A stretch of DNA of 64,000 bases from Methanobrevibacter sp. (GTDB lineage Archaea; Methanobacteriota; Methanobacteria; Methanobacteriales; Methanobacteriaceae): contig NZ_SUTM01000002.1 of the NCBI RefSeq assembly GCF_015062935.1, forward strand, positions 30,252 through 94,251. Direction: 5' to 3'. This document shows positions 11,310-54,665 of the stretch, one piece after another (position 1 is the stretch's first letter; each line of letters starts with the position of its first letter). Under the pieces are notes generated by a model, which worked only from the letters and a program-made list of their open reading frames with translations, made no database searches and was not told the DNA's origin. Both the position numbers and the translations under genes were made by a program.

Positions 11310-12536
11310 TTATAATTCTTTACATGCCTGAGCTAATTTTTTACCTAACTCGTAGCTTGCTTCATCTTCATCAGCGGTTGGTACAAAGTAGATTTCCTGA
11401 GTGTCAACAATATCGAATCCGCAGTTTCCTAATTCTTCAGCGAGTTTTGCAGGAGCTCCTCCTCTTCCGCCCATGGAACCGAAGGTAACTGCTTTTCTTT
11501 CAATACCTGTTCTGTTGAAGAGTAATCCTTTAAGGTAGTACATGATGTCCCCGATACTTGGGTATGGCACATCGTTGATTGTAGGGTCTCCAACAGCAAT
11601 TCCTTTACTGGTTAGGATACTTTTGACGATTTCGGATCTTTCATCTTCGTGCAAGAAGAAGATTTCCACATCATATCCTTCAGACATTGCACCTTCAGCA
11701 ATTTCATGAGCCATTTGCTGGGTTGAGTAGTGCATGGTGTCATAGATGATTGTGATTTTGTCTTCACATACACCGGTAGCCCAGTTCTGGTAAGCTCCGA
11801 TAATTTGCATTGGGTCGGTCCAGATTTGACCGTGGGATGGTGCAATCATTTTGATTTGATCAAGTAAACCTAATTCGACTACTTCATTTAGTTTTTTGAG
11901 AACTAATTTGGAAAGTGGTGTAATTAAGTTTGCGTAGAATTTCTGAGCTGCATCCATTAACACGTTTTCAGGGATTTCATCTGAGAATCTTTTGGTGAAA
12001 CATAAGTGCTGACCGAATGCGTCGTTAGGGAATAAGATACCGGTTTCATCAGCAAGCAATGTAAACATGCTGTCAGGCCAGTGTAGGAGGAATGCATCTA
12101 AGAATGCTAAGGTTCTTCCGCCAACATCTAATGAATCTCCGGTTCCTACAGTGATGAATTCTGCTCCTTCAAGTGCAGGGTAGTGTTTTAATAAACCTTT
12201 CACTGCGATTTCGGTACAGTAAATTGGTGCTTCAGGGAATCTTTTGTGTAAGTCCACTAAAACACCAGAGTGATCTTTTTCAACGTGGTTTTGAATAATG
12301 TAGTCAACTTTAACTTCTTTTCCTTCTTGAGCGAAAGCATCGTCGATACGTGCCATCATTTCTTTGGTTTTACCAGGATAAGCGTTATCAATAAGTGCTA
12401 CTTTGTCTTCTCCAAATACTAAATATGCGTTGTAGGTTGTTCCGTCTAAGGTGTAACCGTGGTATGTTCTTAAGTCCCAATCGAGTACACCGATCCAGTA
12501 TACTCCATCAGCTATTTTTTGAGCATTAGCTTTCAT
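11310..12536 (-). CDS. fprA: Coenzyme F420H2 oxidase FprA (A-type flavoprotein)
   Basis: Reduces O2 to water with F420H2, protecting a strict anaerobe. The 408 residues have a metallo-beta-lactamase domain carrying the diiron ligands (NHVEKDHSG near residue 85, a His in HWPDSMF near 150, APSHGQIW near 230). A flavodoxin domain with the FMN loop [11 protein letters not shown] (about 260-270) and GGRGGAP follows. It leads a two-gene operon with the rubrerythrin-like protein. A CGAA/TTCG palindrome next to its TATA box and an msvR gene 14 kb away suggest redox control. Confidence 0.96.
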
Positions 12537-12608: not shown

Positions 12609-12644
12609 TTATATATAATTTTGTTTTATACGAATAGTTCGTTA
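12609..12644 (-). promoter_or_regulatory. fprA promoter with CGAAT-A-GTTCG palindrome
   Basis: On the minus strand the TATA element lies at 12609-12619 (TTATATATAAT). Just upstream is TACGAATAGTTCGTTA (12629-12644), a near-perfect palindrome. The same core occurs at msvR (26012-26024). MsvR is known to bind TTCG-containing boxes at fpaA and msvR in Methanothermobacter; assigning this site to MsvR is inference. Confidence 0.55.
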
Positions 12645-15706: not shown

Positions 15707-15768
15707 AGATTTACTAAAAATTGATAATGTTGCGAACTATATCATACGTTTTATACGAACGTTCGTAT
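15707..15768. repeat. Island repeat, copy B
   Basis: Contains a 23-bp block (15733-15755) identical to copy A and ends in the perfect palindrome ATACGAACGTTCGTAT (15753-15768). It sits between two convergent genes, 48 bp after the antitoxin stop and 17 bp before the ATPase gene end, so it is not an obvious promoter. Confidence 0.55.
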
Positions 15769-15784
15769 TAATTTTACACATGTC

Positions 15785-25996: not shown

Positions 25997-26024
25997 TTTA
26001 TATGTTATAAAACGAACAGTTCGT
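25997..26024 (+). promoter_or_regulatory. msvR upstream TATA-like element and CGAAC-A-GTTCG palindrome
   Basis: GTTTATATG (25999-26006 region) is followed by the perfect palindrome ACGAACAGTTCGT (26012-26024). It has the same core as the site at fprA (12629-12644). Placed between TATA and the expected start of transcription, it would suit autorepression. A second TATA-like stretch nearer the gene (about 26097-26105) is possible. Confidence 0.5.
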
Positions 26025-26157
26025 ATCTATTTTATTCTTTAATTTTATCATTGTTCATATTTTTTTATTATTTCTATACAATTATCGTTTTTTGATTTAT
26101 ACAAATATTTATTAACCTAAAAATATTAAATAAGATTATATATTGGGGGATATTAAT

Positions 26158-26928
26158 ATGAGCGAACAAAAACCAATCCAGATTTTCTCAAATTCCAACG
26201 ACAATATTGGTGTTAATGTTGTAAAAAGTCCAGTAAAACTTACAATTCTTGAAATGTTAAGGGACCGTGATATGGAATTTGATGAAATCGTAAGCAATAC
26301 AGGAAAATCAAAATCTACAGTATCAGTTCATCTCAAAAGTTTAAGGGAAAAAGGTATAATTTCATATAAGGTTCATCCTGTAGACAACAGGAAAAAAATA
26401 TTCTTTTTAAACTCCAAATACATAGGTTCTGTCGACATGAGGGAACCAAAAGAGATAGAACAAACCCAATCCGATTACCTAATCAAAAATCTAGTTGAAG
26501 AGGATGAGGAATTTTCAACATTGCTGTTCCACACATTAAAATCAATGCTTATTCAGGAAGGAATAAATATAGATCCGATTCTTCAGTCAACAGGAAACAG
26601 CATAGGCAAATCAATTTTTGAAAAATTGTATGATGATGATTTGGATGTATTCATGGATAATCTTGCCGAATTCTGGCAAAGAAAAGGTTTAGGAAGATTA
26701 ACATTTAAAATAGGTCAGATAATAAAAATTACAACCTATGACTGTTTTGAATGCAAATTCCTCCCAAAAACAGGAAAACCAGCATGTTTTTTGGATACTG
26801 GAATATTTGAAGGTTTATTCACTGAATTTTTCAATCTCCCTGTCAGCGTTATTGAAACTCAATGTTATACTATGGGAGATGAAAAATGTGTATTTGAAAT
26901 TGAGCCTTTAAGCATCAAATCAAATTAA
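26158..26928 (+). CDS. msvR: MsvR, methanogen redox-responsive transcription regulator
   Basis: 256 residues. N-terminal ArsR-like winged helix (about 15-80, with IVSNTGKSKSTVSVHLKSLR) and C-terminal V4R domain (about 115-250). The V4R part carries CFECKFLPKTGKPAC and QCYTMGDEKC, the cysteines expected to sense redox state. MsvR regulates the fpaA operon and itself in Methanothermobacter. The ATG at 26158 follows GGGGGA and is preferred over the in-frame TTG at 26143. The 3' end overlaps the convergent cbiL gene by 4 nt. Confidence 0.92.
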   Translation: MSEQKPIQIFSNSNDNIGVNVVKSPVKLTILEMLRDRDMEFDEIVSNTGKSKSTVSVHLKSLREKGIISYKVHPVDNRKKIFFLNSKYIGSVDMREPKEIEQTQSDYLIKNLVEEDEEFSTLLFHTLKSMLIQEGINIDPILQSTGNSIGKSIFEKLYDDDLDVFMDNLAEFWQRKGLGRLTFKIGQIIKITTYDCFECKFLPKTGKPACFLDTGIFEGLFTEFFNLPVSVIETQCYTMGDEKCVFEIEPLSIKSN

Positions 26929-52095: not shown

Positions 52096-54414
52096 TTAGT
52101 TATCTTCGAATCTTCTTCTGTCAATTAATTCTTGACGTTTACCTGGGTTCCAACCACCAGATGCAGATTTTGCACGTCCAACTTGTTGTACGTATCCGGT
52201 AATTCTGTCATACCATTCAACATCTTCGCTTTCACCGCAGGTAGGACAAGTATTATTTAATCCTTTCATTAAGGTTTTACATTTTAAACAGAAACTTAAT
52301 GCTGAGCTGTAAGCCCAGAATCCGATATCGGATTTTCTTGCAATTTTGTTAGTTAAACTCATTAATGAATCTGGATCGGAGTATGATTCTCCCATGAATG
52401 CATGGAAGATATGTCCACCAGGAGTTATACTGTGATATTGTTCTTCAATTTTGATTTTTTCAATTAAGGATAATCCTGTGTCTACTGGTACGTGTGAGGA
52501 GTTGGTGTAGTAGTTTGCATTTCCTTCTCCCTGTACGATAGCTTGGTCTCCGAATTGTTTTTTATCGAGAGTTGCAAATCTGTAAGCAGTAGATTCAGCA
52601 GGAGTTTGAATTACAGACCATCTGAGTCCAGTTTCATCTTTTAATTGGTTAGCTCTATCGTTAATGTAGTTTATACATTTTACACCGAATTTATTGGATT
52701 CAGGATTTTCAATACCTTCGCCGAATAAGGATAATAACATTTCGTTAAGTCCAACAAAACCAAAGGATAATGTTGAATTTTCGATTCTGTAGTATGATTC
52801 TTCTCCTACTTTTTGTTTTAAGAATGGTAAGATGTGGAAATCATTTAAACATTTTAATCCTTGTTCTCTTCTAAGCATTAAAGTTTCAACAGCCAAGTCC
52901 ATGTATTCATCTAAGTATTCGAATACTTGGTTTTCATCTTTGGATTGGTATCCGATTCTTGGTAAGTTTAATGTAACGTATGCAAGGTTACCGGTTCTTA
53001 AACAGTCTTTATCCCAGTCTCCAGTCCAGGTATCTTGTAAACAGGTTCTGCATCCCATGTAGTTTGCCATTTGGCCTCTGTATTCAGGGAACATGTTTAC
53101 AAAGTAGGATGAACCGTATTTAGCAGATAATTCGTGGACTAAACGGAGGTCATCTTCGTATTCACTGGTCATTGTTTCAGGTCTTAAGGTGTAAATTGTA
53201 TTTGGGAATAAATGAGGTTTACCTTCGTTGTCTCCTGCGAGTAATGTTTCAGTGAATGCTCTTTGGATTAATCTGGTTTCTTCTTCAAAATCAGCGTAGG
53301 TTCCTACAACCTGACCTTTTGGTCCGTATGCGGTTTCTTCTTTTAAGAAGTCAGGAACACCGAATTCCAGTGCCATACTTGTGAATGGTACTTGGGATCC
53401 TCTTGCTGCATAAGCCATATTTAAGTTGTAAACAAGCATTTGTACAGCCTGTTTGATTTCATCATAAGTTCTGCCTCTTGCAAATGGTGCAACGAATACG
53501 TTCCAGAGGGACATTGATTGTCCACCGGACATGTTTTGTTGTGCTGCAAGCATGATTTCACCAGTGTGGTTCATTAAAGTTTCCATGTGGTTTGGTGCAC
53601 CTGCAATGGAGGTGTGGTCACCGGTACCGTCTACTTTAAGTCCGTATTTGATGAATGTTCTTATATCATGCTGGAGACAGTTTAGAGGTCTTCCTGCGAA
53701 GAATTCTAAATCGTGAATGTGAATGTCACCGGACATGTGTGCGTCTGCTAGGTGTGCAGGTAACATTTTTAATAAAGCGTATTGTTTTAATGCTTCGTCT
53801 GCTACATGTTTGTGAATACTTTCTGGGTTGTGAATCATGTTTGCGTTATCCCTGTTACCGTTTTCGATGAGTGATGTAATGTTGTATACAGGAATACCTA
53901 AACGGGTGTAACGGCTTCTTAAGTCTTCTAAACCGTATTCAATTAATTTTGTGTTAACCATTTCCCTGATCATTGGAGCGGTTAAGTATTCTACATTTAA
54001 TTTTTTGAGTTCTTTCCAGGTTTCAGTAGCAATTTCAAAAGCAGTTTCTTGGCTAGCACCGGTTTCTTCAATCAGGGTGTTAGCGATTTTTGATAAGTCA
54101 AATGCTTCAATAGTATCTCTTGAAGTACGTACTTTTAATTGGGTACTTGCTAAGTATTTGTTTGCGATTTCAGGGTCGATATCTTCTAAACATTCGTGAA
54201 CTATTTTTTTGATTTCTTTGGTTTTAATTCCATCGTATAATTGGGATACTACTGTAGCTACGATTTTATCAGATTCAAAGAATGGGGTTTCTACCATTAC
54301 TAATGATTTTACTAGCTTTTCATAGCTAAATCTTTCTTTAATACCGTTATTCTTTTCTACATTGATTTTAACGGTTTCATTTAATTTATTTCCTAGTTCT
54401 GAAATTTTTTCCAT
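52096..54414 (-). CDS. nrdD: Anaerobic ribonucleoside-triphosphate reductase NrdD
   Basis: About 772 residues. Glycyl-radical class III reductase that makes deoxynucleotides. N-terminal ATP-cone (about 12-105), catalytic core with NCLQHDIR and GCRTCLQD, C-terminal zinc site CLKCKTLMKGLNNTCPTCG and radical site RITGYVQ (near 740). The activase nrdG is not in the window. ATG 54414 is chosen over GTG 54423 because GGTGTG then sits at proper spacing. Two palindromes bracket its promoter. Confidence 0.95.
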   Translation of the reverse strand: MEKISELGNKLNETVKINVEKNNGIKERFSYEKLVKSLVMVETPFFESDKIVATVVSQLYDGIKTKEIKKIVHECLEDIDPEIANKYLASTQLKVRTSRDTIEAFDLSKIANTLIEETGASQETAFEIATETWKELKKLNVEYLTAPMIREMVNTKLIEYGLEDLRSRYTRLGIPVYNITSLIENGNRDNANMIHNPESIHKHVADEALKQYALLKMLPAHLADAHMSGDIHIHDLEFFAGRPLNCLQHDIRTFIKYGLKVDGTGDHTSIAGAPNHMETLMNHTGEIMLAAQQNMSGGQSMSLWNVFVAPFARGRTYDEIKQAVQMLVYNLNMAYAARGSQVPFTSMALEFGVPDFLKEETAYGPKGQVVGTYADFEEETRLIQRAFTETLLAGDNEGKPHLFPNTIYTLRPETMTSEYEDDLRLVHELSAKYGSSYFVNMFPEYRGQMANYMGCRTCLQDTWTGDWDKDCLRTGNLAYVTLNLPRIGYQSKDENQVFEYLDEYMDLAVETLMLRREQGLKCLNDFHILPFLKQKVGEESYYRIENSTLSFGFVGLNEMLLSLFGEGIENPESNKFGVKCINYINDRANQLKDETGLRWSVIQTPAESTAYRFATLDKKQFGDQAIVQGEGNANYYTNSSHVPVDTGLSLIEKIKIEEQYHSITPGGHIFHAFMGESYSDPDSLMSLTNKIARKSDIGFWAYSSALSFCLKCKTLMKGLNNTCPTCGESEDVEWYDRITGYVQQVGRAKSASGGWNPGKRQELIDRRRFEDN

Positions 54415-54513
54415 GTACTTCACACCATTTTCCTAGTTTTTAAAAATTTATTATCCAACTGAGAGAGCATTCTCTCACCTGTTATAGTTTATGTCGTCAC
54501 ATGTATAATTATT

Positions 54514-54586
54514 GTTCGTTTGTATACGAACATCTATATAATACATGGTTCCTCATAGTATATAAATTGTTCGTCTTGTATCGAAC
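54514..54586 (-). promoter_or_regulatory. nrdD promoter with two GTTCG-N8-CGAAC operators
   Basis: Perfect inverted repeats at 54514-54531 and 54569-54586, each GTTCG, 8 bp, CGAAC, with centres 55 bp apart. The minus-strand TATA (TTTATATACT, 54558-54567) lies between them, so one operator abuts the TATA from upstream and the other covers the region just past the expected transcription start. The half-sites resemble the CGAA/TTCG sites at fprA and msvR, but the geometry differs. It is not a bacterial NrdR box. Confidence 0.65.
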
Positions 54587-54665
54587 AGGATTTATTTACT
54601 CTGAAATATATTATATTAATAATATTAAAAATCAAATGTCCGAGAGCATTTGAGAAGTAATGTCA

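Follow-up and report, generated by a model that had tools for sequence, protein, structure and literature searches.

Upstream of nrdD, the window (the whole 64,000-nucleotide stretch of Methanobrevibacter sp. DNA analysed here) carries two palindromes that, judged by sequence, are MsvR-type boxes, a known kind of operator at a new target. We favor the reading, at a probability of roughly 0.65, that these boxes form two tandem operator-promoter modules at which reduced MsvR represses nrdD, and from which oxidation releases it. The boxes and their TATA elements are observed directly, whereas MsvR as the binder, its repressing action and the redox signal at nrdD are what we infer from them and from characterised relatives.

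Apparent tandem operator-promoter modules upstream of nrdD

The nrdD gene (52096-54411, minus strand) encodes an anaerobic (class III) ribonucleoside-triphosphate reductase with an NRDD domain (PF13597, E = 4.6e-168) and an ATP-cone, and matches the NCBIfam model NrdD (TIGR02487). Upstream of it the window contains two exact copies of GTTCG-N8-CGAAC, GTTCGTTTGTATACGAAC and GTTCGTCTTGTATCGAAC, confirming the original prediction of two exact inverted repeats with the same half-sites and spacing. The gene preceding nrdD, an 1124-residue reading frame that we recognise by its sequence as apparently the large subunit of archaeal DNA polymerase II, lies on the same strand and is not divergent, so the palindromes most likely serve nrdD.

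Read on the nrdD (minus) strand, the distal operator O1 (54569-54586, GTTCGATACAAGACGAAC) abuts and covers the expected BRE of a promoter P1 whose TATA element TTTATATA (54559-54566, minus) shows 98% column identity across 29 sequences. The proximal operator O2 (54514-54531, minus, GTTCGTATACAAACGAAC), with half-sites that are 100% conserved, is positioned just downstream of the expected P1 start and covers the expected BRE of P2, which it forms together with the TATA-like element AATTATAC (54503-54510, minus; 97% column identity). Transcription starts near 54537 for P1 and near 54480 for P2 were placed from the usual TATA distance of 25-27 bp. The claim that the boxes flank the nrdD TATA therefore holds for the P1 element lying between them, while the second TATA-like element, just past the proximal box, had been overlooked. 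A bacterial-type promoter scan was set aside as irrelevant to archaea.

The exact palindrome occurs only three times in the whole 2.5-Mb genome, two of these being the nrdD pair. Shuffled versions of the window gave a mean of 0.41 matches at no more than one mismatch and reached two matches in 3 of 100 cases; of the shorter TTCG-N8-CGAA the genome has 8 copies, fewer than of the reversed control pattern (27). It is conservation that rules out chance and makes the sites look functional: the 450-bp regions upstream of nrdD in this and related genomes hold 85 sites (spacers of 4 to 13 counted), every one with a spacer of 8, as against no spacer-8 TTCG/CGAA site in the other 496 kb of these loci.

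Conservation at the nrdD promoters of relatives

A single scan of genome contigs yielded 75 nrdD loci, 70 of which (from Methanobrevibacter and relatives, the window included) have upstream regions long enough to use. TTCG-N8-CGAA occurs in 51 of these 70, twice in 36 and once in 15, and is missing from 19. Across the family, the exact GTTCG-N8-CGAAC pair is found in 36 of 139 genomes, 35 of them in the window's genus, with none for the control pattern, in a search that partly covers the same genomes as the locus scan; within the genus, TGTTCG-N8-CGAACA is present in 58 of 67 genomes, with one for the control. The scan of Methanobrevibacter nrdD promoters proposed in the original prediction thus finds the motif conserved, not absent, at orthologous promoters. 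One-box promoters represent a simpler version of the arrangement, as in G042, which is presumably M. smithii.

In other genera the element ranges from intact through degenerate to absent. It is mostly intact in genera g3 and g9; in g6, g8 and g13 one or two half-site bases have changed, with a TATA still adjacent and in a similar place; two of four g12 genomes carry direct repeats of TACGAAC; and g19, to which the probable M. thermautotrophicus belongs, retains a single (A)TACGAACAG at nrdD, or TGCGAACAG in one genome. The box is absent from nrdD in g5, g7, g10 and g11 although MsvR is encoded there, and family f2 has nrdD without such a box and no MsvR above cut-off.

Alignment of 29 two-box promoters reveals half-sites that are 99-100% identical (those of O1 included) between spacers at 63-72% (72% in O1), with 63% identity in the DNA between the P1 TATA and O2. 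This pattern bears on whether the repeats might work as leader RNA hairpins and not as DNA operators. O2, if transcribed from P1, can indeed fold. O1, however, precedes the TATA and would be missing from a P1 transcript, there is no Rfam match, and the half-sites are invariant, free of compensatory change, in contrast to a separate and covarying leader hairpin, so we give this explanation almost no credence. In the two-box clade the conserved leader hairpin itself (54460-54477, minus; relatives L014-L088) reads GAGAG...CTCTC, whereas the one-box clade has GATAG...CTATC. Both partners of one pair are replaced in 9 of 24 sequences, and the hairpin is lost in species with a shortened leader, among them L026, L028, L030 and L032.

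The boxes hold their position relative to TATA rather than to each other. Of the distal boxes, 32 of 34 are followed by their best TATA 8-mer at 3 bp from CGAA, as are 29 of 35 proximal boxes and 12 of 15 single ones, whereas box-to-box distances are 55, 56, 57, 58, 59, 60, 78, 79, 84 or 103 bp, most of them 55-60 and the rest 78-103. The conserved unit is therefore a box plus a TATA, present once or twice per nrdD promoter, and the fixed register combined with a varying distance identifies two tandem operator-promoter modules and not a looping pair. A box end some 3 bp upstream of TATA also means that each box covers the expected BRE of its own promoter.

The original prediction had seen in the pair the geometry of a looping or co-operative repressor, and a helically phased pair bound co-operatively by one complex, possibly NrdR-like, would be the general form of that idea. 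Although 36 promoters are two-boxed and 15 of these have exactly 55 bp between boxes, another 15 make do with one box, the distances cover both faces of the helix, conservation between the P1 TATA and O2 is low (0.63), each box is locked to its own TATA, and NrdR is absent; we consider such a pair very unlikely. As to NrdR, the protein exceeded the cut-off in 2 of 139 family genomes, both of them assemblies with contamination (5% and 8%), and in the window's own genome the match was weak and confined to the ATP-cone part. Bacterial NrdR boxes resemble the nrdD boxes in being site pairs that overlap a ribonucleotide reductase (RNR) promoter, but the sites of a pair stand 14-17 or 24-27 bp from each other, in helical phase, with both sites needed (PMC12051234), whereas the boxes here are 37 bp apart, variably so in relatives, and commonly single. 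NrdR control of nrdD was rejected on both counts, and the earlier statement that these are not NrdR boxes is borne out.

Identity of the element and of its candidate regulator

For MsvR the published box reads TTCGTAN4TACGAA, or TTCGN7-9CGAA in its more general form (PMC3729527). Both window boxes have the inverted TTCG...CGAA half-sites with an N8 spacer; for the inner TA...TA, the proximal consensus TGTTCGTAtnaataCGAACa fits, the distal consensus is variable on the left with AAGACGAA on the right, and neither window box is a full match. Their setting at BRE and TATA agrees with that of MsvR boxes, box B of M. acetivorans lying just upstream of TATA where it is thought to block the BRE (PMC3729527). 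Their 17-bp flanks are about 18-29% G+C by an eye count, the upstream sides falling slightly above the published <20%. The original prediction had called the operator undescribed, a description that does not survive comparison with the published box (PMC3729527).

The closest known systems are the PmsvR/fpaA region of M. thermautotrophicus and PmsvR of M. acetivorans (PMC3729527), which share with nrdD a TTCG-N8-CGAA repeat in an A+T-rich promoter, a box placed over BRE/TATA or immediately before it, and a regulator of the same NCBIfam equivalogue. They differ in that the putative target here is nrdD and not msvR or an oxidative-stress operon, and that two separate box-TATA modules stand in tandem. 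The motif by itself is insufficient for MsvR binding, as the unbound rpoK site illustrates (PMC3729527).

The candidate regulator, msvR (26143-26928, plus strand), scores 308.6 bits against NCBIfam NF053755 (MsvR; cut-off 220), and Pfam places an N-terminal ArsR-type HTH (HTH_5) before a C-terminal V4R domain. By alignment its five cysteines are C201, C204 (CFECKFLP), C215, C241 and C249, which supply both the three conserved V4R cysteines and the CX2CX3(H/P) motif of other MsvR homologues, here as CX2CX3P. The HTH segment KSKSTVSxHL is common to this protein and that of G148. At least one MsvR match is present in all 67 genus genomes.

The same N8 box appears at msvR in related genera. In G148, probably M. 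thermautotrophicus delta H, msvR diverges from an fpaA-like gene with the N8 box TTCGTATATCATCGAA between them; genera g14-g16 and g2 have N8 boxes at their msvR promoters; and G133 carries a pair of GTTCG-N8-CGAA(C) sites between its MsvR gene and hcp, the hcp-nearer site being followed by a TATA-like stretch.

In the window's own genus the arrangement is different. The msvR promoter there has conserved everted half-sites (ACGAACAGTTCGTAT; in the window CGAACAGTTCG at 26013-26023) and no N8 box, and everted half-sites also occur upstream of fprA (11310-12536, minus) as CGAACTATTCG at 12631-12641, the form CGAAC-N2-TTCG being found in this genome and some relatives. The likeness to msvR and fprA noted in the original prediction consequently extends to the half-site but not to its arrangement, which is CGAAC-N1-2-TTCG there. 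This everted order at the genus's own msvR is the main weakness in assigning MsvR to the nrdD boxes. It lends some weight to the possibility that nrdD answers to another regulator recognising a TTCG-type half-site, with the window's MsvR playing no part, as do the MsvR-bearing genera without an nrdD box and the presence in this genome of a second MsvR paralogue (on C10; its upstream region is without half-sites), which would be a sub-case of the same explanation. We nevertheless think it quite improbable, given the exact fit to an experimentally defined MsvR box, the same boxes at the msvR promoters of related genera and between msvR and hcp in G133, and the occurrence of the nrdD pair in genomes with a single MsvR match, such as the one-contig genome G043.

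Other occurrences of the half-site

The third exact site in the genome (G000:C33:9313-9330; L003 1501-1518) lies in an A+T-rich repeat beside a phage-integrase-family gene. The palindrome recurs in L183, L196, L197, L182, L184, L189 and L193, several of these copies being flanked by AATTTCACTA or TAGTGAAATT; this repeat with the same flanks in relatives is probably of another class. It has more the look of a site for a recombinase or mobile element than of an MsvR operator, and a genome-wide regulon drawn up from the motif alone was therefore rejected.

In L181, L186, L187, L188, L190, L191 and L195, GTTCG-N8-CGAAC is conserved in the gap between a prephenate-dehydrogenase-like gene and cdc48, some 170 bp upstream of a conserved cdc48 BRE/TATA, ACCGAAACCTTTATATAG. 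A perfect palindrome with the msvR half-site, ATACGAACGTTCGTAT (window 15754-15769), is flanked by a DUF2283 gene on one side and a gene for an archaeal ATPase on the other, with no promoter obviously assignable to it. Another candidate MsvR target is a HEAT-repeat protein gene, where TTCGTATACTATCGAA (G000:C32:19745-19760; L012) precedes a TATA-like TTTATATA by a few bp. A further element, CAAATGCTCT or often ACTTGTCAAATGCTCT (window 54637-54652, minus; L003, L189, L206), is conserved just 3' of the gene preceding nrdD in many relatives and also occurs in unrelated places, for example beside the integrase gene.

A proposed redox mechanism

NrdD is a glycyl-radical enzyme, destroyed by oxygen. 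No class I or II RNR was found among the 67 genus genomes, so nrdD is apparently the sole RNR. In M. acetivorans, reduced MsvR binds its own promoter, H2O2 reverses the binding and DTT restores it; thioredoxin reactivates the protein. By analogy, an MsvR dimer on either nrdD box would block TFB/TBP at that promoter, and MsvR bound at O2 would in addition form a roadblock immediately past the P1 start. Reduced MsvR would thereby lower nrdD transcription, oxidation of the V4R cysteines would release it, and the oxygen-sensitive RNR could be resupplied after oxidative damage. Two promoters may give graded output. With such a repressor engaged under ordinary anaerobic conditions, a cell could afford repression of its only RNR if that repression were partial.

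The cost of standing repression of what is apparently the only RNR speaks instead for activation, in which MsvR, or another factor at the same site, recruits TFB/TBP from just upstream of TATA. Box centres near -42 from the expected starts would be compatible with this, and a fixed 3-bp register to TATA suits a recruiting contact equally well. We judge activation unlikely: the BRE itself is taken up by the right half-site, O2 falls immediately past the expected P1 start, and for characterised MsvR proteins with boxes so positioned the described role is repression by blocking TBP/TFB (PMC3729527).

MsvR is known to act on its own gene and on one oxidative-stress operon. Among the papers searched none links MsvR with RNR control, the MsvR passages of the one review returned being about other targets; nrdD could be among the entries of the M. 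acetivorans target table. MsvR differs in protein family and binding site from SurR of the Thermococcales. SurR is likewise an archaeal redox-sensing transcription regulator (mentioned in PMC7278568).

Redox control of nrdD by repression through MsvR is plausible. The broader proposal, that a thiol-redox repressor gates the sole Methanobrevibacter RNR through tandem operator-TATA modules and so links DNA precursors to oxidant exposure, we regard as an even bet; in the papers searched, no such control of an archaeal class III RNR was found. The nrdD promoter fragment is a short and directly testable piece of DNA. If nrdD does carry a conserved MsvR box, this would account for the way rumen and gut methanogens maintain the supply of an essential, oxygen-sensitive enzyme, and two MsvR-type addresses at a sole nrdD suggest redox control of DNA synthesis in gut methanogens.
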